A stretch of DNA of 64,000 nt from Streptomyces asoensis (GTDB lineage Bacteria; Actinomycetota; Actinomycetes; Streptomycetales; Streptomycetaceae): assembly GCF_016860545.1 (NCBI RefSeq), contig NZ_BNEB01000005.1, forward strand, positions 1,054,001 through 1,118,000. Direction: 5' to 3'. Within the stretch, counting starts at the first letter, position 1; each line of letters begins with the position of its first letter. The translations under genes were made by a program, and so were the position numbers. The notes beneath the pieces were generated by a model, which made no database searches, was not told the origin of the DNA, and worked only from the letters and a program-made list of their open reading frames with translations. This document shows, piece after piece, positions 1,961 through 37,660 of this stretch.

Positions 1961-3469
1961 CTACCACTTGCCGGGCGCGTAGTCCTTGAGGAACACCCCG
2001 TACAGGTCCTCGCCCTGCTCGCCGCGCACGATCGGGTCGTAGACCCGGGCCGCGCCGTCGACCAGGTCGAGCGGGGCGTGGAAGCCCTCCTCGGCGAGGC
2101 GCAGCTTGTCGAAGTGCGGGCGCTCGTCGGTGATCCAGCCGGTGTCGACCGAGGTCATGAGGATGCCGTCGCTCTGGAACATCTCCTGGGCGCTGGTGCG
2201 CGTCACCATGTTCATCGCGGCCTTGGCGGCGTTGGTGTTCGGGTGGCCCGCGCCCTTGTAGCCACGGCCGAAGACACCCTCCATCGCCGAGACGTTCACG
2301 ACGTACGCGCGTCCGCTCGCCGCCTTCTTGGCGGCCTCGGCCATCGCCGGGCGCAGCGCGCTGATCAGGATGAAGGGCGCCGTGTAGTTGCACAGCTGGG
2401 TCTCGAGGAGCTCCACCGGGGAGATCTGCTCGATGGTCTGCACCCAGGTGTTGCTGTCGACGACGTCGGGGACCAGACCGCCGGCGTCGATGGCGGTGCC
2501 GTCGAGGTGCCGGGCGATGCTGGCGTTGCCCGCGACCAGGGCGAGGTCGGCGACCTGCTGGGCGTCCGGGCCGCCGGTGCCCAGGGGCAGCGCGGCGAGT
2601 CCGTCGACCGCGCCGGAGCCGAAGGCGCCGATGACGTGGTGGGCGGGCAGCTCACCGGCGGGCAGCGGGGCGTTCTCGCCGCCGACGAGCGCGGCGTAGG
2701 CGGAGGGCAGACGGCGGACGGTCTGCGTCGCGTTGTTCACGAGGATGTCGAGCGGGCCCGCGTCGGCGACGCGCTCGGCGAGCGAGACGGCCTGCGCCGG
2801 GTCGCGCAGGTCGATGCCGACGATCTCCAGCCGGTGCAGCCAGTCGGACGAGTCGTCCATGGCCTTGAAGCGGCGGATGGCGTCCTTGGGGAAGCGCGTG
2901 GTGACGGTCGTGTGGGCCCCGTCGCGCAGCAGCCGCAGGGCGATGTACATGCCGATCTTGGCGCGGCCGCCGGTGAGCAGCGCGCGCTTGCCGGTGAGGT
3001 CCGCGCGGGCGTCACGGCGGGAGCGGTTCTCGGCGGCGCAGTCCGGGCAGAGCTGGTGGTAGAAGTAGTCGACCTCGACGTACCGGTTCTTGCAGGTGTA
3101 GCAGGAGCGCGGGCGCTGGAGTATTCCCGCGATCCGGCCCTCCTCGGTGGCCGAGGACGGCAGGATGCCCTCGGTCTCGTCGTCGATGCGCTGGGCGGAG
3201 CCGGTCGCGGTGGCCTCGGTGACCGCCTTGTCGTGGGCGGTCTTGGCGGCCCGGCGGTCCTGGCGGCGGCGCTGCTTGACGGTGCGGTAGATCCCGGCGG
3301 TGGCCCGGCGCACGGTGATCGCGTCGGGGTGGTCGACGTCCAACCGGTCGAGCTCGTCCAGCACGGCGAGGCAGACGGCGAGCCGCTCCGGGTCGATACC
3401 GGGGCCGTGCACGACCTCGTCCACGACCTCCTGCGTGATCGCCGCCGAGCCGTCCTCTGTCACCGTCAT
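1961..3469 (-). CDS. SDR-like oxidoreductase with N-terminal zinc ribbon
   Basis: 502 residues, about twice a normal SDR. Residues 1-115 look helical and charged. C123-x2-C126 and C141-x2-C144 form a probable zinc ribbon. From about residue 155 an SDR domain begins: LLTGGRAKIG for the dinucleotide, LDILVNNATQTVR, and VVNVSAMEG in the catalytic region. The YxxxK motif reads TNAAK, so the catalytic Tyr is Thr, and a long insertion lies between the NNA and Ser motifs. It may bind NAD(P) without acting as an ordinary reductase. The ATG at 3469 has a GGGAAG-type binding site. It converges with the SDR at 1090-1848 and stands alone as a unit. Confidence 0.8.
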   Translation of the reverse strand: MTVTEDGSAAITQEVVDEVVHGPGIDPERLAVCLAVLDELDRLDVDHPDAITVRRATAGIYRTVKQRRRQDRRAAKTAHDKAVTEATATGSAQRIDDETEGILPSSATEEGRIAGILQRPRSCYTCKNRYVEVDYFYHQLCPDCAAENRSRRDARADLTGKRALLTGGRAKIGMYIALRLLRDGAHTTVTTRFPKDAIRRFKAMDDSSDWLHRLEIVGIDLRDPAQAVSLAERVADAGPLDILVNNATQTVRRLPSAYAALVGGENAPLPAGELPAHHVIGAFGSGAVDGLAALPLGTGGPDAQQVADLALVAGNASIARHLDGTAIDAGGLVPDVVDSNTWVQTIEQISPVELLETQLCNYTAPFILISALRPAMAEAAKKAASGRAYVVNVSAMEGVFGRGYKGAGHPNTNAAKAAMNMVTRTSAQEMFQSDGILMTSVDTGWITDERPHFDKLRLAEEGFHAPLDLVDGAARVYDPIVRGEQGEDLYGVFLKDYAPGKW

Positions 3470-23717: not shown

Positions 23718-24509
23718 ATGGACACCAAGCCCTTCACCTCCGGCCCGGGCGAGAGCGCGGTGCTGGTCACGCGCGTCGCGGACAGGCAGTGGCACGCGCT
23801 GGAGGACGACCTGGTGGTCGGCCGCGGGCACGCCCAGCACCGGCCCGACGGACGTCTGTTCGTCAGCGTCGACGCCTGGCACGACACCGCCTTCGACCGG
23901 CTCGCCGCAGCCCTGGTGGCGCACCTGCCCGCACCGCTGCACACGGTGGTCGACGAAGCCGACACCGCATTGACGGCCCGCTGGCTGCGGGCCGGTTTCA
24001 CGGTCCGGCGCCGCGAGGGGGAATACGCCGTCCCGACCGACCCGGAGGTCACGGGGCTCGGAGCGGTCCTGCCGCCCCCGGGTGTGACGATCGTGCCGGC
24101 CGGGCGGACCGACGAGGCTCTGCTGCGGGCCGTGGACCGGGCGATCCGTGACGAGGTCAAGGCGAGCGTCGGCTGGTGGTCGATGCCCGCGGAGGTGATT
24201 CCTCGTCCCGGGGGCGACACCCTCGTCGACCCCTCGAAGTACACGGTGGCGGCCTCGCCGGACCGTTACCTCGGCCTGATCCGGGTGGCGCCGGTGAAAC
24301 GGCCGCGCATCGGCCTCGTCGCGGTGCGGGCCGGCGAGCGGCGCCGGGGCCTCGCGCGGGCCCTGCTCGCCCACGAGCTGGGGAGGCTGCACGACTGCGG
24401 GGTCGGCACGGCCTGGGTCGAGATCCAGGAGTCGAACCGGGCGGCGGCCGCGCTCTTCGAGGGCATCGGCGCGCGGCAGCAGAGCAGCAACCTGGAGCTG
24501 GTGCGATGA
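23718..24509 (+). CDS. GNAT family N-acetyltransferase
   Basis: 263 residues. The N-terminal half (residues 1-120) is an unusual domain containing [21 protein letters not shown], which resembles the extra domain of some two-lobed GNATs. The catalytic acetyl-CoA-binding motif is in the C-terminal half: [20 protein letters not shown], followed by [19 protein letters not shown]. The substrate is unknown. ATG 23718 follows GGAAGGGG. Its stop overlaps the start of the IF-1 gene by four bases (ATGA), so their translation is coupled and an effect on translation machinery is conceivable. Confidence 0.88.
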
Positions 24510-24730
24510 CGAAGCACAGGAACGTCGTCGAGGTCGAGGGCAGGGTCGTCGAGTGCCTGCGCAGCGCCATGTTCACCGTGGAGCTCGAGAACGGCCACCA
24601 GGTGCTCGCGCACATCAGCGGGAAGATCCGCAAGAACTACATCAAGATCATGCTGGAGGACCGGGTGCTCGTGGAGCTGCCGCCGTACGACCTCACGCGC
24701 GGCCGGATCGTGTTCCGCTACCGCAACTGA
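24506..24730 (+). CDS. infA: Translation initiation factor IF-1 (second copy type)
   Basis: 74 residues, a single OB-fold S1-like domain. [20 protein letters not shown] and [15 protein letters not shown] are the IF-1 signature; IF-1 binds the ribosomal A site during initiation. It differs from the usual Streptomyces housekeeping IF-1, which I recall as starting MAKKQGAIEIEG and sitting in the ribosomal protein region; here it starts [12 protein letters not shown] and follows an acetyltransferase. It is therefore probably a paralogue for special conditions. ATGA overlap with the upstream gene. Confidence 0.93.
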
Positions 24731-24859: not shown

Positions 24860-25357
24860 TCAGACCTCGGGCAGCCCCGGGTCCTCGTCGATGGCCCGCA
24901 GCAGCCCGCGGGCCGCCTCGGCGACCTCGGGCTGCACGGAGCCGGCCAGCCCTTCGATCCTGTGCCGCCCGGCGAGGACCGCGGCCCGCGCGGCGACCTC
25001 CCACCCGGGCTGCTCCTGGAAGTTCTTCCGCCTCGGCCCGCCGGCCGCGGCCGCCGAGGAGTGCCACGTCCGCGTGCGGTAGATCTTCTCCAGCAGTTCC
25101 AGCAGTTCCGGCGTGCACGGCACCTGAGGAGCCTCGGCCAGTTCCAGGAGGAAGGGCACGGTCGGGGCCGTGGCCTCGCCCACGACGAACCCCAGGGCGC
25201 AGACGCAGTCGCCCAGGTCGTCGACGGCGAGCCGGGCGACCTCCTCTCCGCCGTACGCGATGCGGGAGAGCAACGCGGGAATGTCCCTGGCGGGGGCCTG
25301 CGCACCGCGCAGGTCCCCCCAGCGCACTCCAGGAACGCCCTTCAGCAGGCTTCCCAT
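24860..25357 (-). CDS. Candidate immunity protein of the Rhs toxin
   Basis: 165 residues, no signal or membrane segment. The middle (ALLSRIAYGGEEVARLAVDDL, then PTVPFLLELAEAPQVPCTPE) and the end (RIEGLAGSVQPEVAEAARGL) read like paired amphipathic helices of an alpha-solenoid, HEAT-like protein. ATG 25357 has AGGAG at eight bases. It begins 14 bases after the stop of the polymorphic toxin, the classic place for a cognate immunity gene. I do not recognise a named immunity family; the role is inferred from position. Confidence 0.7.
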   Translation of the reverse strand: MGSLLKGVPGVRWGDLRGAQAPARDIPALLSRIAYGGEEVARLAVDDLGDCVCALGFVVGEATAPTVPFLLELAEAPQVPCTPELLELLEKIYRTRTWHSSAAAAGGPRRKNFQEQPGWEVAARAAVLAGRHRIEGLAGSVQPEVAEAARGLLRAIDEDPGLPEV

Positions 25358-25371
25358 GACCCACACTCCTG

Positions 25372-28300
25372 TCAACCGATGTCGAAGTACGTGTCCCTGA
25401 TGCCGAGCCGGGACATGACCTGCTGGCAAGAATCGCACCCGGGCAGGAGTTCCCTGTTGCGGGCGTTGCCGAAGGGCTTGTGCACCATGGCGAGGCTCCG
25501 GCTCCCGCGGATCGTGTCCCCGGCCTCGAGTGCCTGGGTGATGCAGCCGATCTCGGCGCAGCCGGCGTGGTGGTCCGTCTGGTTCACCACCCTGCGCAGC
25601 ACCAGCGGCAGGTTCGACTTGTCGTGGTCGGACCGGTTGCGGCTGAGGTCGAAGTACGTGTTGCCCTCGGGCGTCCAGAGCGCGCTGGCCGCCCCCTCGT
25701 TCTTGCCGGGTCCGAGCCGTCGCAGGTCCGTGTAGGCCCGCAGTGGGCAGAAGAGCGGATTCTTGCGGGCGCTCTCGTTGTGGACGAGCACGGTCGCGGC
25801 GCCGGCCCGGACGAAGTACGTGTGGGCCGTGTCGACCGTGAGGTTGTGGACGGCTGCCTGCTGGGTCCAGGCGGTGACCGCGTCCACGCGGACCCAGGAG
25901 CCGGAGCCGGTGCGCAGCCACTGGCCGGGCTTCAGCTCGCCGGCCTTCAGCCACTTCCGCAGGTCCGGGACCCAGAAGGGGTGGCCCTCGGTCGCGGTGA
26001 TCGTGCCGGTGGCGTGACCCGCGTCGCCGTCCGTGTCGATCGTGAGCCTGACGAGGTGCTTCTCCCCCTTGCCCTCGATCGTGCCGGTGACCTTCTGCTT
26101 CGAGGTCTCGCCGGTCGTCGGGTCGGTGGCGAGGACCTCGTCGCCCTCCTCTACCTTCTCGATCGGTTTGCGGCTGCCGTCGGCCATCACGACCTCGGTG
26201 CCGGGCACGAAACTGTTGCCGGTGGCGAGGGAGGCCACGTCCCGGGCGGTGGAGACGCAGTCCGCCACCGACTCGGCCTCTTCGAGGACCTTCTTGCCCT
26301 TCTCCGCCGCCTTCGCGATCTCGTCGGCGTACTTCGCCGCCTTCGCCGCCATCCGCCCGGCCTTCGCCGCCCGGACCGCCGCCGCGCCCGCGCCGCCGAG
26401 GACGATGCCGCCCACGGTCGCCGCCGCCCAGGCGCAGGACTCCATGTCGCCCGTGGTGACGCAGTTCTTGATGTCGTTGAAGCCGGTGACGTCGCCGACG
26501 ATGTTGCCGACCGCCTTGACGTCGTCCCAGACCTCGCCCCAGTCGACCGCGTCCGAGACGGTCTCCACGACGCTGCCGACCTGCTTGACGACCTCGTCGC
26601 GGATGGCGTCGGCGGCCCTGGCCGCGTCGGCGACCACCTGGACGGCCGCGCCGACGACGATCGCCGGGAGGTTCGGGTCGGCCGTGACGATGGCCTTGCC
26701 GATGGCGATCAGCGGTTTGGTGGCCGCGAGGACCGCCGGGATCGGGTTGTGCCGCGCCGCGAACGAGGCGGCCTGTCTGGCCTTCTTCGTGAGGTAGACC
26801 TTGGCCTGGTAGGCGGCCCTGGCGGCCTGTCTCGCCTTCTCGCGGGCCCATTCGGTGACGCCGGTCTTCTGGCCGACCCACTTGACGGCGTCGACGGTGG
26901 CGTCGACGACCGTCTTCAGACCCGACTTGCGGTAGACCCAGTTGGCGGCCTTGCCGACGTAGCTCAGCGCCAGCCTGAAGGCGGCCCCCGGGTTGTTCCA
27001 CGCCCACTGCACGCCGTGCCACACCGACTGGGCGGTCTTGGAGACGTACCCCACGCCTTGGCGCAGCTTCTTGCCGGTCCAGCTCACGGCCTTCTTGCAC
27101 CAGCCGCAGCTCGGCCAGTGGCCGTCGGGGTCGGAGTAGTCCAGCGGGGCGCCGGCGCCGTAGGTGTAGCGGTTGGCCAGGATCGAGGCGCCGGAGCCGT
27201 AGTCGTAGGAGTCCCGGGAGTCGAACGTGCCGGTCCCCGGGTCGTACCAGCGGGCCCCCATGGCGACCTGGCCGGTGTCCGGGTCGGTCCAGTCGCCCTG
27301 GTACCCCGCGTTGCCGTGCAGTCCGTCCGTGCCGAGCACCTTGCCGAACGGGTCGAAGGCGGTGGACTCGTCCAGGGCGGACGCGGCGCCGTTCGCCGCG
27401 GACATGGCGCCGACGACGTCGCCGTGCCGGTCGTCCAGGGTGAGCCGGGCCGTACCGCCGTTCTCGGCGATCGAGAGGAGTTCGTCCGCCGCGCCCCGGC
27501 CGTAGGTGGAGTTCTGGTCCTTGACGGGGTCGGGGGCGAAGCCCGCGTAGGAGAAGCCCACGCCGTTGCGGTCCGCCGTGCGGTCCAGCGAGTCGTAGGT
27601 GTACGTGGTCCCGGACTCGCCCGCCTTCACCAGCCGGTCGAAGGCGTCGAAGGTGAAGTCCTCCTTCAGACCGGAGCTGGTGCGTGAGGCGAGCGTGCCG
27701 CGCGAGGTGTAGTCGTAGGTGTAGTCGCCGTCGGACAGCAGCCGGTTGCGCTGGTCGAAGGTGGCGGTCTTGGCGCCGTTGCGCACCCGGTTGCCGCTGT
27801 CGTCCCAGCCGTACGCCGTCGTCGTGCCGTCGGCCGTCCAGGAGGTGAGGCGGCCGGCCTGGTCGTAACCGTAGGTGCTGGTACCGGCCTTGGCGGTGCC
27901 GACCGTGGTCTTGGACGCCAGCCGGTCGTTGGTGTCGTAGCCGTAGTCGGTGGAGGCCATCGTCCGGCCGGCGCTGTTCTTGAGCGTGTCGGTGTCGAGG
28001 CGGCCCAGTTCGTCGTAGGTGAAGCCGCGGGACTGGCCCGCGCCGTAGTCGATCTGCTTGATCGCGCCGGCGCCGTCGTAGGTGTAGCTCTGCCGGACTC
28101 CGGTCAGCGGGTCGGTCGCCGAGGTGAGCTGCTGTTTCGCGTAGCTGAAGCCCGCGGTGCCGGCCGCGTCGGTGCGGCTGGTGAGCAGGCCGTCGTTGTC
28201 GTAGGTGTACGTCGCGTCGCCGGACGGGCCGGTCGCCTTCAGCAGCGCGCCCCGGTCGTCGTACTCGTAGGTGTCGTCGCCCTTCGGGGAGGAGGCCCGG

Positions 28301-31300
28301 ACGAGCCGGCCCGCCGGGTCGTAGCCGAACCGCTTCTCGGGTGTCGTGACGCCGGCGCCCGTGCCGGTCTCGCGCACGCGCTGTCCGGCCTTGTCGTACT
28401 CGCGCTCGCGGACCACGTCGCCCGGCGCGGTGAGTCTCACGGCCTGGCCGTCGGCGTCGTACGCGTTCGTCCAGGTGCGGGCCGCCAAGGACGGGTCGCG
28501 GTCGGTCGCCGGTTCGATCACCGACTCGGCGAGACCGAGGGTGTTGAAGGTGTAGACGGTGGAATTGCCGCGGCCGTCGGTGTAGCGGGTGCGGTTGCCC
28601 AGCGCGTCGTACCCGAAGGACGTGGTGAGGGACTTGGTGTCCGAGACCGGCTCGGTCTGGCTGGTCAGCCGGTTGAGGGCGTCGTAGGCGTAGGTCGTCG
28701 TGCGGTTCAGCGGGTTGGTGGAGCCGATCAGGTTGCCGGCCTTGTCGTAGGAATAACTGACCTTGCGCAGCTGGCTGTTGAACGGGTCCAGGTCCTGGTC
28801 CTGGACGAGCTGGCCGAGCTGGTCGTAGATCTTCGCCGAGGCGCGGCCCATGCCGTCCGTGCGGCGCACCTCGCGGCCCGAGGCGTCGTAGCCGAGCTGG
28901 GTGACGACACCGCTCGGCTCCTGGAGCCGGGTCAGCTGGCTGAGGTTGTCGTACGTGAACTGGCTGGTGGCGCCGCTCGGTGCGGTCTGGCGCACCACGT
29001 TGCCGGAGTCGTCGTACTCGCTGCGGGTGGTGAACGCGCCCGGCTGCGGCCTGCGTTCGATCTGGGTGGTGGTGACCGGCCGGTCCAGGTCGTCGTACGT
29101 CGTCTCGGCGCGGGCGCCGTTCGGGTCGGTGACGGACAGCACCTCGCCGGTGCGGGTGTAGGTGTACTTCCACTGGCCGCGCTCGTCGTCCGTGCCGACG
29201 GGCACGTCCTTGACCGTGACCCGGTTCTGGCGGTCGTACCGGAACCTGGTGACACGGCCGAGCGGGTCGGTGCTCTCGGTGACGTTGCCGAGCGCGTCGT
29301 ACGTGCTGGTGACGGTCGGCGCGACGGTCTTGGTGGACCCGGGCGCGGTGTAGGAGGGCGCGGTCGCGGTGACCGCGCGGCCCAGCCGGTCGTAGGCGGT
29401 GCGGTTGACGTTGCCGAGCGCGTCGACCGACTCCGTGACCGCGCCGAAGGTGTCGTGACCGGTGAACGTCGTGGGCCGTGAGGTGACGGGGGCGGCGCCG
29501 CCGGACTCGGTCCGCACGGCGGGCGCGGTCACGGAGGCCGCCCGGCCCAGCTCGTCGTACCCGTACTCGGTGGTGTTGCCCGCCGGGTCCGTCCTGGAGG
29601 TGGTGAGCCCGCGGTCGTCGTAGGTGTAGTCGGTGGTCCGCGAGTCGGTGCCGTTCTCGACCGTCTCGTGCAGGACGTTGCCCGCGTCGTCGTACTCGTA
29701 GCGCACGGAGTCGCCGCTGACGCTCACCGGCCAGGGGACGTTGGAGGGCGCGCCGCCGGAGGCCGTCGTCAGCACGTTGCCGGCGGGGTCGTAGGTGTAC
29801 GTCGTGCGCCGCGCGAGTCCGTCGGGGTCCATGACCTCGGACTTCACCCGGCCGACGGAGTCGTAGGTGTACGCGGTGACGAGCTTGCCGTTGCCGCTCG
29901 TCTCGGTCAGGACGTTGCCGGCGCCGTCGTAGGTGCTGGACTCCACGACGACGTCGCGCTTGGTGCCGTCGGGGTTGTGGAAGTCCTTGAGCGTGATCGA
30001 CCTGACCAGGTCGTCGCCGTAGTACTGGTAGACCAGCGAGCGGCCCATGGAGTCGGTGTGCCGGGCGAGCCGGCCGCCCATGTCGTAGGCGTACGACTGG
30101 AGGACGGTGAAGTCCGGGTCCCCGCCGTCGTCGTCCCCGTCGCGCAGGCGGGTCTCGGCCATCATGTTGCGCGCGGTGTAGACGTAGTCGTAGTGGTTGC
30201 CGCCCGCGTCCACCATCGACGTCTTGTTGCCGAACACGTCGTAGACGTACGAGGTCTCGTTGCCCTCGGCGTCGGTGACCCGCTCCGGGCGGCCGTGGTC
30301 GTCGAGGTCGAAGGTCATCACCCGCGCGGCGTCGCCGCCCAGCAGGTCGCCGATCTCGGTGCGCACCACGTTGCCGTCGGCGTCGTAGTCCGTGGTGGTG
30401 CGCTGCTGGTGCCGGCCGGAGGTGACGGCGTTGGTCGCCGCGGGGTCGGTGAGGGTGCGGACCCGGGAGAGCTTGTCGTAGGTGAAGGTGGACGTGGTGC
30501 CGGCGGGCTGGGCGTCGGTGACGACGGTCTCGGCCAGCTTGCGGCCCAGCGTGTCGTACGTGTACTTGGTGACGGCGCCGGACGGATCGGTCACCCAGGC
30601 CAGGTCGCCGTTCTTGTAGTACTGGTAGCGGGTGATCTTGCCGCGGGGGTCGGCGGTGGTGAGCGGCAGGCCGGTCGGGGTGTTGCCGCCGCCGACGGCC
30701 GGTTCGGCGCCGGTGGTGTAGGTGTTCCTGGCCGTGCCGCCGTCGGGCGCCGTCTGGGTGAGCAGCGCGCCGTTGGTGTTGTAGGTGTACTTGGTGAGGA
30801 AGCGGTCGTCGGTGGGGCCGGTCGAGCGGCCGTCGCGGGTCTCGGAGGGCTGGTCGCCGCGCAGGTCGAGGTCGCCGGCCGGGGTCGGGTAGGTGGTGTA
30901 CGAGGTCTGGCAGTCTCCGGCCGAGCGGCAGGTCGTCCGGCTGGTCACATTGCCGCGGGCGTCGTAGCCGAGGGTGACCTTCTCGCCGTTCTCGCTGGTG
31001 ATCCCGGTCTGGAAGCCGTTGTCGTCGTAGGTGAAGGAGCGGATGGCGACCCCGTCGACCGGGTACCGGACGAAGTCCGGCCCGTCGCCGCCGTGTCCGG
31101 GCGGATTGGTGCAGAAGGCCGGGTCGCCGGGATCGGGCTGGGTGCAGACCTCGCCGGGGCCGGTCGTCGACGGGGACGGGGATCCGGTGCCGGACTCGCG
31201 GGCGCCGAGGGCCATGGGCTCGCCGTAGCGCAGCAGCCGCGACGACAGCCCGTCGTACTCGTAGAAGTAGGGGGCGTCCATCGGGTCGCGGACCTCGACG

Positions 31301-34300
31301 GTGCGGCGCAGGTCCCTGTCGTTGCCGAAGACGGCGGGTGTGCCGATCCGCCAGGTGCCGCCGTTGCGGTCGGTGTACTCGCGGACGCGGTCGCGGGCGG
31401 TGTCGTACTGGACCTCGGAGGCGGTGCGGCCGCTGGGCAGGGTCGTCCGGGTCAGGACGTCGGCGGTGCGGCCGCCCTCCCGGTAGTGGGCGGTGACGGC
31501 CGCCGTGCCCAGCGGGTGATGGTAGACGGCGACGTCGTCGATGGTGCCCGCGAAGGACCTGGCGGCGGTCGTTCCCCAGCCCGGCCAGGAGGCGGGTGCG
31601 CTGGCGTGGGCGGCGCCGATCTGGTTGTGGGTGAGGGTGGTCTGCGACGGCTGCTTGCCCGTGAGGGTCCCGGAGAGCCGGCCGTCCAGGTAGAGGCTCT
31701 GGCCGGAGCCGGAGAGCGAGAGCACCGCGTGGTGCCACTGGCCGTCGTTGACGTTCTTGGTGGTGTCGGTGATCGGCGCGGCGGTGCCGGTCCAGAACTG
31801 GCCGCGGAGCTTGCCGTCGGTGCCGACGTACAGCAGCGGGACACCGGTGCCGGGCGTGGTGCCCCAGGCCTTGTCCTGGTACCCGGCGAGCGGGCCGCCG
31901 ACGCCACCGGCGATGGTCTTGAACCACACCTCCACCGCCGCGTCACGGCTCTTCTTCAGCGTGCCGGCGGGCAGGTCGACGCGTGAGCCGGCGCCGTCGA
32001 AGGACGCGGCGGTGCCGGGGTCGCCGGTGATCGCGCCCGCGGCCTTCAGGGTGACGTTCTGGTAGGTCCCGCGGTCCTTGCCGAGGTTGGCCTCGTTGGC
32101 GCTGCCGGCCGCGGTGCCCTCCTCCTCGCCGAGGCGCCAGTAGGACTCGGGGCGGGAGTCGAGCACGGTGGTCGCGTAGTGGCTGCCGGTGCCGTAGCCG
32201 TACTGGGTGCAGCCGTTCAGCGGGTCGCAGACCCGGTCCAGCAGATCGCCGGTGTAGCTGTACGCCCAGGCCAGCGGGGCGCCGTCGACGGCGGTCGTCC
32301 GGACCCCGGTGACGTGCGCGCCGGTCCAGGTGAAGGTCAGCGAGCGGGAGGTGCGGTTGTTGGTCGCGGTCGTGAGCCGGCCGGCGCTGTAGGTGTAGGT
32401 GACCGAATTGGAGTACGCGTCGGTGGTCCTGGACAGGAGGCCGGTCGTGCTGAAGTCGTACGTCGTCCCGGACTTGTCCTGGAGCGAGTAGCCGCCCGTC
32501 GCGGAATCGGGGGTCAGCTTGGCGAAGCGGCCGGGCGGCGGGGCGTACGTGCCGTCCGCGTTCTTGCCGAAGCGCACGTCCTGGCCGTCGGGGTAGCGGA
32601 TGACGACGTTGCCGCTGCCGTCGTCGTCCGGGGTGAGCCGCATGTCGAAACGGGTCGTCCAGCCCGCGCCGAAGGCGAGGTCACGCCGTGGGTCGAGGCT
32701 GTTGTAGGTGCGGATCACCGTCAGGTCGGGGCCGACCCCGGCGAGGGACGCGTCGGTCGCGCTGGAGGTGAAGTTGCCGACGTTGGGGTCGAACTCCTTG
32801 CCCTGCGCGCCGGAGAGCCGCGAGGTGATCTCGGGCTGCGGAACGGCGGCGACCAGCGCCACCTGCTGGGTGGGCACCTCGTTGGACGCGTCCTTGACGA
32901 AGCCGCGCCACAGATAGGTCTTGCCCCACTTCAGCCGTCCGGAGGGCACCGGGTAGGCCGAGCCCGTCTGGTAGGCGGAGGTGGTGCAGGCGGCCGGCTT
33001 GCCGTCCTTGTCCGACTCGCAGATCTCGAACTTGTACTGGAGCGTGGAGCCGGGGGGCGCGTCGATGTCGGTGCCGGCCGCCCACAGCTGCGGGGTCAGC
33101 GTCTGGGCCTGGTAGCCGTTGGGCGGGAACTGCTCCTTGACCACCGGCGCGATGTCGAAGACCTGGATGGTGAGGCGGCCCGGCGGCACCTGCTCGTCCG
33201 TGAAGACCTTGCCGCCCTGGCGCACCATCGTGAAGTCGAGCAGGTAGACGCCCGGCGGGAGGGCCTTGATGGTGGCGTCGACCGTCGCCTTGGCGCCGTG
33301 CGCCACGTTCCCGGTGAGACTGCCCGCCCGCTGCTGTGTGACCAGCTTGCCCTTCTTGTCGTAGGCGCGGTAGGCGAGGTAGTAGGTGGACGGCGTCCAG
33401 GTCTCGGCGCCCTTGTTGGTGACGGCGACCTTGACCTTCCCGGCCTGGTTCTGGAGCACCGGCGGGTCGGGGACAGGCTTGGGGAAGCTGTAGGAGGCGT
33501 TGTACGGGGAGTGGGTGACGTACAGCTTGGGCGGGTTGGCCGTGGCGTGGCCGGTGAACTTCTTGTACGCGAGCGCGTCGGTGGCCGAAGCCCGCAGGGA
33601 CAGGCCGTAGTTGGCCTGGGTGCCGTCGACCCAGCGCTGCACCAGGTCGCGGCCGCCCTTGCCGAGGTCGAAGAGCTCACCGGCGGTGGGGCAGGCGGAG
33701 TTCGCCTGGCCGAGGCCTATGTAGCCGTAGGCGAAGGACTTCGAGGCGAGGGCGCCGCCGACCGGCGGGCCGGGGTAGGCGGTTCCGGTGCCGGCGGTCC
33801 ACGCCCCGGTCACGGGATGCACCGAGACCGAACGCGGTTTGCAGGAGGCCGAGTCGAAGTTCACGACCTGGAGCTGCACGCCGAAGATCTGGTGGTTCCT
33901 GAGCTCCTCGTCGAGGCCGGGGAAGCCGAGGTAGGCGGCGGAGGCGCCGTCGGGGCCCTTGCCTACTTGGAGTTCGCCGGAGCCGACGACGGATCCGCCG
34001 CCGCGGACCGTCATGGAGGTGGAGGCGGAGGTGGTGTCGACGGAGGGGTCGAGGCGGACGGGGTAGACCCGGGCCGGGTCGGCGAGCCAGTCCCGGTCGG
34101 CGGTCACCTTCAGGGCCTGGCCGCCGTCCGGCAGCGGCACGAGCGTGTAGGTCACGGCGTGCGAGACGGCGTGGTCGGTGTCCTCCATGAACCCGGCCGG
34201 GACGACGGCGCGGGTACGGCCCCGGGCGTCGGTCAGCAGAATCGATCCGCCGTCGGCCTCGGCGGTGAGGCCCCGCAGGTGGAGCGGGAAGACGAAGCTG

Positions 34301-35076
34301 TTCGGGGCGGTGGCGGACTTCAGGACGAGGGTCTCCTTGACCCCGCCGGCCTGCGAGTCGAGCCAGAGGTCGGTCCCGGGGAACACCTGGGGGTAGGCGA
34401 CCCGGGCGCCGTCCGCGGCGCCCGCCACCGGGGCGGCGCCGCTCAGTCCGTAGCCGAAGGACTCGCCGGACGGCAGGGTGACGGAGGCGACCTGGTCGGC
34501 GTCGGCCCGTCGGGCCAGGCGCAGGTCCACGGAGTCGGCGGTGTTCGCCCAGCCGCCGTCGCGCTCGACCAGGCCGCTGTCGATGGGCTGCCAGGTGCCG
34601 TTCCGGTCACGGTAGTTGACCGGGTCGGTGGAGATCTCGCTGGTGCGGGTGCCGTCCTCGTTGGCGTACGTACGGCTGTCGGCGTCCCGTTCGGAGACGA
34701 TCTCCTTGCTCGTCGCGCGGTCGAAGCCCTTGACCCGCGCGGGGGCCGGCGTGCCGACCTCGACCGTGTTCTTGCGGACCGCGGGCCGGGCGGCGGGCGG
34801 GCTCTTCAGCGGGTACGTGGCGCGCAGGGAGCGCGGCGCGTCGTCGTTGCGCTTGCCACCCGATAAGTGGCTGAGGCCCTCGGCACTGCCCCAGCGCTGG
34901 CCGGGCCCCTCGGCGGGGGCCGGCTCCCCGGGGAAGAGCGGGATGCCCATCCCCGCGACGGCGAGCGAACCGACGGCGATGACCGCGATCACCGCGAGTG
35001 CGACGGCCTTGCCCCAACCGGAGCGCAGGAGTCTTGCGACCAAGAACTTGCGCGCGAGTGTCCGGTACGTCGGCAC
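25372..35076 (-). CDS. Rhs/YD-repeat polymorphic toxin with HINT and YwqJ-like deaminase tip
   Basis: 3234 residues. Order: one N-terminal membrane/signal segment (about 20-42), a DNRLRE-like beta domain (near 350-500), an entry to the Rhs shell (DLTVIRTYNSLDPRRDLAFG), a LamG/concanavalin-like module (about 1020-1170), dozens of YD repeats to about 2560, the Rhs core end (DPFGKVLG, GYQGDWTDPDTGQVAMGARW), a long helical segment, a HINT self-splicing/cleaving domain from S2955 to N3100 (SFVPGTEVVMADG to VLVHN), and a 134-residue toxin. The toxin has HHAGCAE (H3170, C3173, E3175) and C3214-x2-C3217, the zinc-deaminase signature, closest to YwqJ-like deaminases. GTG start. Probably acts on competitors' nucleic acid or nucleotides. 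Confidence 0.93.
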   Translation of the reverse strand: MPTYRTLARKFLVARLLRSGWGKAVALAVIAVIAVGSLAVAGMGIPLFPGEPAPAEGPGQRWGSAEGLSHLSGGKRNDDAPRSLRATYPLKSPPAARPAVRKNTVEVGTPAPARVKGFDRATSKEIVSERDADSRTYANEDGTRTSEISTDPVNYRDRNGTWQPIDSGLVERDGGWANTADSVDLRLARRADADQVASVTLPSGESFGYGLSGAAPVAGAADGARVAYPQVFPGTDLWLDSQAGGVKETLVLKSATAPNSFVFPLHLRGLTAEADGGSILLTDARGRTRAVVPAGFMEDTDHAVSHAVTYTLVPLPDGGQALKVTADRDWLADPARVYPVRLDPSVDTTSASTSMTVRGGGSVVGSGELQVGKGPDGASAAYLGFPGLDEELRNHQIFGVQLQVVNFDSASCKPRSVSVHPVTGAWTAGTGTAYPGPPVGGALASKSFAYGYIGLGQANSACPTAGELFDLGKGGRDLVQRWVDGTQANYGLSLRASATDALAYKKFTGHATANPPKLYVTHSPYNASYSFPKPVPDPPVLQNQAGKVKVAVTNKGAETWTPSTYYLAYRAYDKKGKLVTQQRAGSLTGNVAHGAKATVDATIKALPPGVYLLDFTMVRQGGKVFTDEQVPPGRLTIQVFDIAPVVKEQFPPNGYQAQTLTPQLWAAGTDIDAPPGSTLQYKFEICESDKDGKPAACTTSAYQTGSAYPVPSGRLKWGKTYLWRGFVKDASNEVPTQQVALVAAVPQPEITSRLSGAQGKEFDPNVGNFTSSATDASLAGVGPDLTVIRTYNSLDPRRDLAFGAGWTTRFDMRLTPDDDGSGNVVIRYPDGQDVRFGKNADGTYAPPPGRFAKLTPDSATGGYSLQDKSGTTYDFSTTGLLSRTTDAYSNSVTYTYSAGRLTTATNNRTSRSLTFTWTGAHVTGVRTTAVDGAPLAWAYSYTGDLLDRVCDPLNGCTQYGYGTGSHYATTVLDSRPESYWRLGEEEGTAAGSANEANLGKDRGTYQNVTLKAAGAITGDPGTAASFDGAGSRVDLPAGTLKKSRDAAVEVWFKTIAGGVGGPLAGYQDKAWGTTPGTGVPLLYVGTDGKLRGQFWTGTAAPITDTTKNVNDGQWHHAVLSLSGSGQSLYLDGRLSGTLTGKQPSQTTLTHNQIGAAHASAPASWPGWGTTAARSFAGTIDDVAVYHHPLGTAAVTAHYREGGRTADVLTRTTLPSGRTASEVQYDTARDRVREYTDRNGGTWRIGTPAVFGNDRDLRRTVEVRDPMDAPYFYEYDGLSSRLLRYGEPMALGARESGTGSPSPSTTGPGEVCTQPDPGDPAFCTNPPGHGGDGPDFVRYPVDGVAIRSFTYDDNGFQTGITSENGEKVTLGYDARGNVTSRTTCRSAGDCQTSYTTYPTPAGDLDLRGDQPSETRDGRSTGPTDDRFLTKYTYNTNGALLTQTAPDGGTARNTYTTGAEPAVGGGNTPTGLPLTTADPRGKITRYQYYKNGDLAWVTDPSGAVTKYTYDTLGRKLAETVVTDAQPAGTTSTFTYDKLSRVRTLTDPAATNAVTSGRHQQRTTTDYDADGNVVRTEIGDLLGGDAARVMTFDLDDHGRPERVTDAEGNETSYVYDVFGNKTSMVDAGGNHYDYVYTARNMMAETRLRDGDDDGGDPDFTVLQSYAYDMGGRLARHTDSMGRSLVYQYYGDDLVRSITLKDFHNPDGTKRDVVVESSTYDGAGNVLTETSGNGKLVTAYTYDSVGRVKSEVMDPDGLARRTTYTYDPAGNVLTTASGGAPSNVPWPVSVSGDSVRYEYDDAGNVLHETVENGTDSRTTDYTYDDRGLTTSRTDPAGNTTEYGYDELGRAASVTAPAVRTESGGAAPVTSRPTTFTGHDTFGAVTESVDALGNVNRTAYDRLGRAVTATAPSYTAPGSTKTVAPTVTSTYDALGNVTESTDPLGRVTRFRYDRQNRVTVKDVPVGTDDERGQWKYTYTRTGEVLSVTDPNGARAETTYDDLDRPVTTTQIERRPQPGAFTTRSEYDDSGNVVRQTAPSGATSQFTYDNLSQLTRLQEPSGVVTQLGYDASGREVRRTDGMGRASAKIYDQLGQLVQDQDLDPFNSQLRKVSYSYDKAGNLIGSTNPLNRTTTYAYDALNRLTSQTEPVSDTKSLTTSFGYDALGNRTRYTDGRGNSTVYTFNTLGLAESVIEPATDRDPSLAARTWTNAYDADGQAVRLTAPGDVVREREYDKAGQRVRETGTGAGVTTPEKRFGYDPAGRLVRASSPKGDDTYEYDDRGALLKATGPSGDATYTYDNDGLLTSRTDAAGTAGFSYAKQQLTSATDPLTGVRQSYTYDGAGAIKQIDYGAGQSRGFTYDELGRLDTDTLKNSAGRTMASTDYGYDTNDRLASKTTVGTAKAGTSTYGYDQAGRLTSWTADGTTTAYGWDDSGNRVRNGAKTATFDQRNRLLSDGDYTYDYTSRGTLASRTSSGLKEDFTFDAFDRLVKAGESGTTYTYDSLDRTADRNGVGFSYAGFAPDPVKDQNSTYGRGAADELLSIAENGGTARLTLDDRHGDVVGAMSAANGAASALDESTAFDPFGKVLGTDGLHGNAGYQGDWTDPDTGQVAMGARWYDPGTGTFDSRDSYDYGSGASILANRYTYGAGAPLDYSDPDGHWPSCGWCKKAVSWTGKKLRQGVGYVSKTAQSVWHGVQWAWNNPGAAFRLALSYVGKAANWVYRKSGLKTVVDATVDAVKWVGQKTGVTEWAREKARQAARAAYQAKVYLTKKARQAASFAARHNPIPAVLAATKPLIAIGKAIVTADPNLPAIVVGAAVQVVADAARAADAIRDEVVKQVGSVVETVSDAVDWGEVWDDVKAVGNIVGDVTGFNDIKNCVTTGDMESCAWAAATVGGIVLGGAGAAAVRAAKAGRMAAKAAKYADEIAKAAEKGKKVLEEAESVADCVSTARDVASLATGNSFVPGTEVVMADGSRKPIEKVEEGDEVLATDPTTGETSKQKVTGTIEGKGEKHLVRLTIDTDGDAGHATGTITATEGHPFWVPDLRKWLKAGELKPGQWLRTGSGSWVRVDAVTAWTQQAAVHNLTVDTAHTYFVRAGAATVLVHNESARKNPLFCPLRAYTDLRRLGPGKNEGAASALWTPEGNTYFDLSRNRSDHDKSNLPLVLRRVVNQTDHHAGCAEIGCITQALEAGDTIRGSRSLAMVHKPFGNARNRELLPGCDSCQQVMSRLGIRDTYFDIG

Positions 35077-35674
35077 GGCCCCCCCAGGACGAAAAACGAT
35101 CAGATGTGAGCCTGACGGTTCACCGGAGCCTTTGTCGACTCGTTGCCCAGTCCATTCATCTGAGCGTTATCCCATCGTGATCATCTCCCTTAGGCCCCGA
35201 ACGTAGGCTTCCTGACCGCCAGTTACGGATCGGGCTCACGGGGGACTTCCGCCGGAAGCCACGAAACGGGCTGCTCCGGAACCCTTTGTTCGACGGAAGG
35301 ACGCGACGAATCCACATGGCATTAACTCCATACCGCAGAGCCGACCTGCCGATCTCGGTGGCTGCGGCCGGTGAGCTTCTTCAACGCACGCGGGTCGATT
35401 CGCTGACCGGTTCGGTCTTCTCCCCCTACCCGAGGGTGGGCACGGTCCGAGGGCCGTACCGAATCGTGCTCGCCGGCCCGGACGGGCAGTGCATGCTCAT
35501 GCCGGACGGCACCTGCCGGGCGCGCCGCACGGGGTGCGGCACCCGAGGCGTGGCCCCCCGGCACATCGGCGCCGACCTCGTGCCCCGCGTCCTGTGCGCC
35601 GACGGCGGGTCCCTGGCTCGCGCCGCGTGCAGCCTGTCCGCGGCCCGCTGACACCCCTTCCGAAAGGACCGACC
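35077..35674. other. 598-base divergent region between toxin and lectin genes
   Basis: The part next to the toxin start (35100-35260) is comparatively AT-rich and should contain the toxin promoter. An open frame at 35316-35651 on the plus strand (MALTPYRRADLP start, Arg- and Cys-rich end) has GGAAGGA too far upstream to be convincing and matches no family I know, so I do not call it as a gene. No hairpin or operator stood out. Confidence 0.45.
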
Positions 35675-37660
35675 ATGACCTTCTTCTCGCACGCCGGAGC
35701 AGCTCGCCTCACGGCCATGGCGGTGGCCGCACTGCCGCTGGTCATCGCCGTGCCGGGTACGGCGCACGCAGCCGATGCCGCGACCTGCAGGACCAACGGC
35801 CCGACGTACGGCGTGAACAGCGCCGGCTCCCTGCTGGAGTACAAGCTCAAGTCGCCCGTCAACGGCGCCGGCGGATTCATCAGCCCCACCACGATCGGCT
35901 CCAGCTGGGACACCTATCCGCTGGTCGTCTCCGGCCCGGACGGTAAGTTCTACCTGCTCAAGTCGGACGGCACCTGGTACGGCCGACGTGACGTCAGCAC
36001 CGGCACCTGGGCGGTGAGTCCCAGGAAGATCACGACCGCCTTCGGCTGGCTGGCCGATGCCGCGGACCGCAACCAGGTGACCGTGGACCGCTCCGGCCGC
36101 ATGTGGGTGCTGCTCGACAACGGCAGCCTGTACTCGTACAAGTACGACGGCTCGGGCGGCGCCTGGACGCCAGCCGACACGAGTTTCCTCCATGACACGG
36201 GCTGGAACCGCTACGACCTGATCACCGCCGCGGACGACGGTGTGATCTACGGCCGTGCCGCGTCGGACGGCAAGCTCTACCGCTCCCGCTTCGACGCCAC
36301 GAGCCAGCGTTGGATCGAGCGCCACGTGCTGGTCAGCTCCAGCGACTGGCGCCCGTTCAAGAGCATCACGTCCAACGGCGGCGACACCCTGATGGGTGTC
36401 CAGAGCTCCACCGGCCAGCTCTTCTACTACCGCTTCGACGAGAACACCAGGACCTGGCCGGTGAACCGGGTCGAGATCGGCACCGCCGGCTGGCAAAACC
36501 TGCTCAGCGTCTCGGGCGCTCCGGACAACTGTGGCATCGTCGCGAGCCACACGCCCGCGTCTCCCGCCCTCCCACTCGAGTCGTACAGCCGGAGCTCGGT
36601 GATGCAGTCCTCCACCGGATCCATCGAGTTCGCCTACACCGACAACATCGGACGGCTCGTGCACGGACGCATGGCCGACCCGTCCGACGTCAACGGCGTG
36701 CAGTGGACCACCGTCTCCGGCAACGAGGCGTTCACCGGTCAGCCGTCGCTCGTCGAGCAGGCGGACGGAAGGATCTCGGTCACCGCGCACAACACCTCGG
36801 GCAGCGTCTGGCAGCGCAACCAGGTCGCCAAGTCCAGTGCGGACTGGGCGGCCTGGAACGACCAGGCCGGAGCGATGCAGCAGCACGCCACCACCGCGAA
36901 GCTGCCCTCCGGGCAGCTGGTGCAGTTCGCGGCCGACGCGAACGGCGCACCCTGGTACCGCCAGCAGGCCTCGGCCAACGGCGACTTCCTGGGCTGGCTG
37001 CCGCTGTCCGGCACAGGCTTCTCCGGTCCGTTCACGGCCGTGACGGTGCGGGACGGCCTCCAGCTGCTCGGCAGGAATGCCTCCGGCGTCCTGAGCACCG
37101 CGCTGTTCAAGGCGGACGGCACACTTTCCGCCTGGGCTTCGATCGGCGCGCAGGCCATCTCCGGCACCCCGTCCGCCGTGGTCTACCCTGGTTACCGCAT
37201 CCGCCTCTTCGCGACCGACAGGAACGGCGCAGTCATCACCGCCTCCCAGTCCGTCGAAGGCGGAGCGTACAGCGACTGGACGCAGGTGGCCGGGCTCACC
37301 GTGCAGGGCTCCCCCAGCGCTGTGATCTCCCCACTGACCGGCCTCACCGAGGTCGTCGTCCGCGGCACCGACGGCTACATCCACAACACCGGCGAGACCA
37401 TCCAGGGCAGCGGCGTGTGGCGCGCCTGGCAGCAGACGAGCTTCGAGACCTCCGCCACCGAGCCCACGGCCGTCACCTATACCAACGCCAACGGCCCGAC
37501 CTGGGCGTACTCCTTCCGCACCGCGGACAACCAGACCCGGTTCTACGCGGTCCAGCAAACCGCGTCCCTCTCCGCCATGAAAGCCACTCAGGAGGCCCCG
37601 GACTTCACGGGTCGCGGCCTCCCCACGGCTGACGGGCACCACCCCGAACCCCGTAGGTGA
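35675..37660 (+). CDS. Secreted beta-propeller lectin-like protein 1
   Basis: 661 residues. A signal peptide ends at AHAADA near residue 31. Residues 35-300 contain repeated WYG/LYRSRFDATSQRWIE-type blades resembling tachylectin-2-like propellers. Residues 305-640 contain a second propeller with blades such as AYTDNIGRLVHGR, NTSGSVWQRNQV, DGLQLLGRNASGVL and GYIHNTGET, of the kind seen in PLL/fucose-binding-like lectins. No catalytic motif. ATG 35675 follows GAAAGG. It is the first of three plus-strand genes for secreted glycan-active proteins. Sugar specificity is not predictable from the sequence. Confidence 0.8.
   Translation: MTFFSHAGAARLTAMAVAALPLVIAVPGTAHAADAATCRTNGPTYGVNSAGSLLEYKLKSPVNGAGGFISPTTIGSSWDTYPLVVSGPDGKFYLLKSDGTWYGRRDVSTGTWAVSPRKITTAFGWLADAADRNQVTVDRSGRMWVLLDNGSLYSYKYDGSGGAWTPADTSFLHDTGWNRYDLITAADDGVIYGRAASDGKLYRSRFDATSQRWIERHVLVSSSDWRPFKSITSNGGDTLMGVQSSTGQLFYYRFDENTRTWPVNRVEIGTAGWQNLLSVSGAPDNCGIVASHTPASPALPLESYSRSSVMQSSTGSIEFAYTDNIGRLVHGRMADPSDVNGVQWTTVSGNEAFTGQPSLVEQADGRISVTAHNTSGSVWQRNQVAKSSADWAAWNDQAGAMQQHATTAKLPSGQLVQFAADANGAPWYRQQASANGDFLGWLPLSGTGFSGPFTAVTVRDGLQLLGRNASGVLSTALFKADGTLSAWASIGAQAISGTPSAVVYPGYRIRLFATDRNGAVITASQSVEGGAYSDWTQVAGLTVQGSPSAVISPLTGLTEVVVRGTDGYIHNTGETIQGSGVWRAWQQTSFETSATEPTAVTYTNANGPTWAYSFRTADNQTRFYAVQQTASLSAMKATQEAPDFTGRGLPTADGHHPEPRR

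Follow-up and report, generated by a model that had tools for sequence, protein, structure and literature searches.

We found that a 64,000-nucleotide stretch of the Streptomyces asoensis genome (the window) most probably encodes a secreted Rhs toxin with a YwqJ-like zinc-deaminase tip, which would be released by a HINT domain and neutralised by a helical protein of 165 residues encoded downstream; we place the probability of this reading as a whole at about 87%. Our computational analysis revealed the architecture and homology of the toxin, the predicted fold of its tip, the conservation of its active site and a conserved pairing of toxin and immunity genes. The features are listed in Table 1.

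Table 1. Features of the toxin gene and of the adjoining candidate immunity gene, with positions numbered along the window.
Feature	Position	Strand	Basis
WapA-like Rhs polymorphic toxin gene, 3234 aa	25372..35076	-	ORF and Pfam/NCBIfam
Putative hydrophobic N-terminal export signal or anchor, residues ~20-45	34942..35019	-	read from the translation
DNRLRE domain, residues 365-521	33514..33984	-	NCBIfam NF033679, E=2.8e-13
DUF6531, residues 763-836	32569..32790	-	PF20148, E=1.1e-14
Laminin-G-like domain, residues 1027-1194	31495..31998	-	PF13385, E=1.1e-16
Rhs-associated core, residues 2574-2653, closing the RHS/YD repeat region	27118..27357	-	TIGR03696, E=5.6e-14
HINT autoprocessing domain, residues 2955-3100	25777..26214	-	PF07591, E=2.1e-18; residues checked
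YwqJ-like deaminase tip, residues 3101-3234 (134 residues)	25375..25776	-	homologue alignment, profile comparison, fold
CAE motif: zinc ligand C3173 and catalytic E3175	25552..25560	-	alignment: C 31/31, E 30/31
CxxC zinc ligands C3214 and C3217	25426..25437	-	alignment: 31/31
Candidate immunity gene, 165 aa, all-helical	24860..25357	-	position, co-occurrence, model

The toxin gene starts with GTG and runs to its end without an internal stop. An earlier note on this DNA had reported a protein of this length at this location without naming the strand, and an open reading frame was indeed found there on the minus strand. The same long reading frame was also open in a second species, where the tip was 97% identical to that of S. 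asoensis. The protein contained 22 RHS/YD repeats (Pfam PF05593, E=5e-104), and these repeats and the Rhs core were positioned 5' of the variable tip, as is characteristic of Rhs polymorphic toxins; additionally, a pretoxin HINT domain was positioned directly before the tip, with the Pfam match covering residues 2965-3101. The hydrophobic segment at the N-terminus of the protein suggests Sec-type export or anchoring. The HINT domain began with the nucleophile S2955 and ended with VHN followed by Glu, and both S2955 and N3100 were present where the earlier note had placed them. Since the domain has Ser instead of Cys at its start and a VHN-Glu end, cleavage without splicing is likely. The Rhs/HINT architecture, which that note had called established for polymorphic toxins, matched the Rhs-HINT-deaminase toxins described previously (PMC3482391). 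The S. asoensis genome encodes another giant Rhs protein (L046, G000:C6:21493-22275), with an open frame of 3547 aa and 47% identity in the tested part. The divergent neighbour of the toxin gene (35489-37660, plus strand) contained a Tachylectin domain (PF14517, E=1.8e-25).

In the tip, the HHAGCAE motif (C3173 and E3175) and the GCDSC motif (C3214 and C3217) described in the earlier note were all found at the corresponding residues, and together they constitute the CxE and CxxC motifs of zinc deaminases. We aligned the S. asoensis tip with 30 homologous actinobacterial tips; in the resulting 31 rows, the three cysteines were invariant, and E3175 and H3170 were each conserved in 30 rows. As the C, E, C and C residues were kept in 30 or 31 of the 31 tips, some of which were only 23% identical to the S. 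asoensis tip, the motif is not a product of chance. Position 3145 was occupied by Ser or Asn in all 31 tips. In cytidine deaminases, an Asn that closes strand 2 is known to contact the substrate, and a nucleoside-like substrate agrees with the residues at this position.

Homologous tips were identified in 18 of 393 genomes of the genus, with identities ranging from 100% to 28%, and they mostly closed open frames of 1500-3000 residues of the large Rhs type; one of these 18 matches (L020) was located inside an unrelated protein and was dropped as spurious. A profile scan of genome contigs revealed 19 further tip loci in several actinobacterial genera. The genera with homologous tips were Streptomyces, Micromonospora, Salinispora, Glycomyces, Actinocatenispora, Acrocarpospora and others, and the tips nearest to that of S. 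asoensis came from named Streptomyces. Six loci of the S. asoensis tip clade were examined (L005, L006, L007, L025, L026 and L027). Four Rhs tips of the same superfamily, L017 (1501-1674) and L072, L076 and L077 (near 1501), had CGL in place of CAE/CGE, such that the catalytic glutamate was lost and the CxxC motif was kept; judging from the sequence, these tips may be inactive or have an altered chemistry. A tip remnant with no annotated gene was also found beside an IS630 transposase on a plasmid of S. goshikiensis (L135, NZ_CP115937.1 444443-444643).

When the S. asoensis tip alone was compared with Pfam and NCBIfam, no curated family cut-off was reached; the best match was PF00383 (E=0.021), and a sub-threshold radical-SAM match (E=0.015) was discarded as chance. 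The tip showed no match to the YwqJ-deaminase family PF14431 up to E=1. Among the homologous tips, 8 of 17 matched PF14431 at E<=0.1, with a best value of E=9.5e-11. The curated cut-off of this family is 25.9 bits, which was exceeded by L009 (29.8 bits) and L012 (42.5 bits); L025, a clade member 75% identical to the S. asoensis tip, scored 17.6 bits. Profile comparison with hhalign joined the S. asoensis tip clade to the L009/L029 tips at 98.4% and to three other tip groups at 98%; the value for the L012 group was 96.6%. The whole tip alignment was linked to chromosomal PF14431 proteins at 97.8% and to cytidine deaminase at 83%, the latter over the part from CAE to CxxC only. The narrow six-sequence clade gave weak values (6% against chromosomal YwqJ proteins and 1% against CDA), so the wider tip alignment was needed. 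In addition, a profile of 17 tips matched the CDA structure 3dmo in the PDB (E=0.0045). The homology of the tip to YwqJ is therefore transitive, because its relatives pass the PF14431 cut-off and profiles join these relatives to the S. asoensis clade. This comparison agrees with the earlier proposal that YwqJ-like deaminases are the nearest group and, along with the model described below, supports the assignment of residues 3101-3234 as a predicted zinc-deaminase domain of the YwqJ-like group. Membership in the DddA-like family (PF14428) was rejected, as the tip showed no PF14428 match and hhalign gave 0.5-0.9%; a search of the S. asoensis genome for PF14428 also returned no match. The S. asoensis genome contained a chromosomal non-Rhs PF14431 protein (L044, G000:C3:658903-659292), and such a protein was present in approximately 23 of the 25 genomes of the genus that were checked; this chromosomal YwqJ-like deaminase possibly has a conserved cellular role.

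The AlphaFold2 model of the tip, generated with 31 sequences, had a pLDDT of 92.8 and a pTM of 0.88, and its elements were arranged in the order H-E-E-H-H-H(CAE)-E-H(CxxC)-h. The Foldseek search with this model revealed nine matches at E<0.001, all of which were blasticidin S deaminase, followed by CDAs. Consistent with this, VIA-align gave a Z-score of 12.4 and an rmsd of 2.8 over 105 residues for blasticidin S deaminase, and Z-scores of approximately 10 for CDAs and approximately 8 for TadA. The structure prediction that the earlier note had proposed as a check thus yielded a cytidine-deaminase fold, as a model and not as a solved structure. The nearest solved folds, blasticidin S deaminase and tetrameric cytidine deaminase, have the same CAE...CxxC arrangement as the tip; they differ in being free metabolic or resistance enzymes and in that the profile alignment covers only the CAE-to-CxxC part. 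The S. asoensis tip ended 17 residues past CxxC, and all 31 tips ended 10-19 residues past the last Cys. Of the usual fold, strands 4-5 are thus missing or rudimentary, and the predicted fold would lack most or all of the strands 4-5 that are seen in CDA. Because PF14431 matches also stop at the same place after CxxC, the short C-terminus appears to be shared by the group as a whole, rather than to result from a truncation of the S. asoensis gene.

The candidate immunity gene, which did not appear in the earlier note, starts with an ATG at 25357, 14 nt past the toxin stop, and is preceded by AGGAG. In all six clade loci, a homologue with 46-90% identity to the S. asoensis protein started at most approximately 15 nt from the tip stop; the gene is thus directly downstream of the tip and travels with it, as expected for an Rhs toxin. 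Distant versions of the protein that shared the W and WE motifs were found at L009, L029 and L010. A further pair of an Rhs gene and a small ORF was present on a Streptomyces plasmid, and the partner of that homologue was annotated as hypothetical. The 165-residue protein and its homologues matched no family in Pfam, and thus no known immunity family such as Imm6; matches to PELOTA_1 and DUF6367 were far below the cut-off and were discarded. The model of the protein was all-helical (pLDDT 84.7), and Foldseek identified only armadillo/HEAT-like helical repeats at E>0.04, from which no family was assigned. Since the profile of the immunity family matched 148 of 199 genomes of the genus, the protein belongs to a broad helical family that is not specific to the tip. 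Elsewhere in the tip superfamily, sub-clades were paired with SUKH-3 or with other unlabelled proteins; several immunity folds for one toxin fold are expected in polymorphic toxins (PMC3482391). On the basis of position and co-occurrence, the gene product probably protects the producer. Another homologue of the immunity family was found approximately 100 kb away in the S. asoensis genome (G000:C5:978603-979079); its matched region is interrupted by one stop, and the homologue is possibly an orphan immunity gene or a boundary artefact. Convergent to the immunity gene, a small IF-1-like protein (24506-24730, plus strand) was recognised by eye and not by a profile; it is possibly encoded by a second infA-type gene.

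The earlier note had also credited such domains with mutating DNA or RNA. For DNA, this is documented in other groups of toxin deaminases, as those of the SCP1.201 (DddA), DYW (SsdA) and Pput_2613 types deaminate cytosine in DNA (PMC7901873). A literature search revealed no demonstrated substrate for this group. A serious alternative, to which we give somewhat less than even odds, keeps the deaminase fold and the toxin role and takes a free nucleoside, nucleotide or other small molecule as the substrate, such that a pool would be starved or unbalanced. In particular, the nearest solved folds act on free molecules, the tip is minimal and stops soon past CxxC, and induction of YwqJ in B. subtilis is strongly toxic and stops growth with no visible effect on the chromosome or rRNA, from which its authors proposed small molecules as the target (PMC8321402). 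However, the YwqJ assay scored the loss of integrity and could have missed deamination without cleavage, TadA was also among the fold matches of the tip, and the DddA, SsdA and Pput_2613-type toxins mutate DNA. With low confidence, we consider nucleic acid a slightly likelier target of the tip than free nucleotides.

It is very improbable that the tip has decayed into an inactive domain of deaminase fold that is retained for binding. The related CGL tips without the glutamate and the fold that is short at its C-terminus are compatible with such a domain, but the C, E, C and C residues are kept in the S. asoensis tip and in its whole clade, and an immunity gene behind each clade tip is expected only if the tip is toxic. 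Least probable of all is that CAE and CxxC form a structural zinc element of another fold, such as a nuclease; no curated model recognised the S. asoensis tip alone, but the high-confidence cytidine-deaminase-fold model and the profile links to YwqJ had already made this disfavoured.

We retain the reading of a secreted Rhs toxin with an active deaminase tip. The N-terminus of the Rhs protein would direct export, and the YD/RHS repeats would enclose the C-terminal domain in a shell, from which cleavage by the HINT domain after N3100 would release the tip. After delivery to competitors and uptake, the tip would bind zinc through C3173, C3214 and C3217, with E3175 as the proton shuttle, and would deaminate a substrate that is most likely cytosine, such that growth of the competitor cell stops. 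In the producer, binding of the helical protein to the tip would provide protection.

The deaminase groups were reportedly defined by Iyer et al. in 2011. The S. asoensis system shares with YwqJ-like toxins (PF14431; YwqJ-YwqK of B. subtilis) the CxE...CxxC site, the C-terminal toxin domain and the adjoining immunity gene, and the PF14431 model likewise stops just past the CxxC helix. In contrast to B. subtilis YwqJ, the carrier is of the Rhs/HINT and not the LXG type, the tip scores below the PF14431 cut-off, and the immunity protein is helical and outside Pfam. Imm6 has been described as a partner of YwqJ deaminases (PMC3482391), and YwqJ plays a part when strains of B. subtilis compete with each other (PMC12935306). 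The Rhs repeats, HINT domain, C-terminal deaminase and downstream immunity gene are shared with the polymorphic toxins of Rhs-HINT-deaminase type (PMC3482391, Zhang et al. 2012; Iyer et al. 2011), whereas the S. asoensis clade and its immunity family carry no Pfam/NCBIfam label. DddA (SCP1.201 group) and SsdA (DYW group) are also interbacterial toxin domains of the deaminase superfamily; the S. asoensis tip differs from both in its CxE first motif and shorter C-terminus, and hhalign gave less than 1% in a comparison that covered the DddA-like group and not that of SsdA.

The Rhs-HINT-deaminase architecture is thus established, and as far as we looked, the new elements are a tip clade that current family models are not sensitive enough to recognise and an unlabelled immunity family. 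More tentatively, and in our view doubtfully, the clade may represent a minimal deaminase toxin that lacks the usual strands 4-5, has a substrate or sequence preference unlike those of DddA and SsdA and is neutralised by a new helical immunity family; if so, a base-modifying enzyme of very small size could be obtained from it. The YwqJ-type deaminases form a large toxin group, and the S. asoensis clade makes the question of their substrate directly testable, owing to the compact tip, the clear boundary at HINT N3100, the defined catalytic residue and the paired immunity gene. Should DNA prove to be its target, the tip would become a small candidate enzyme for base editing.
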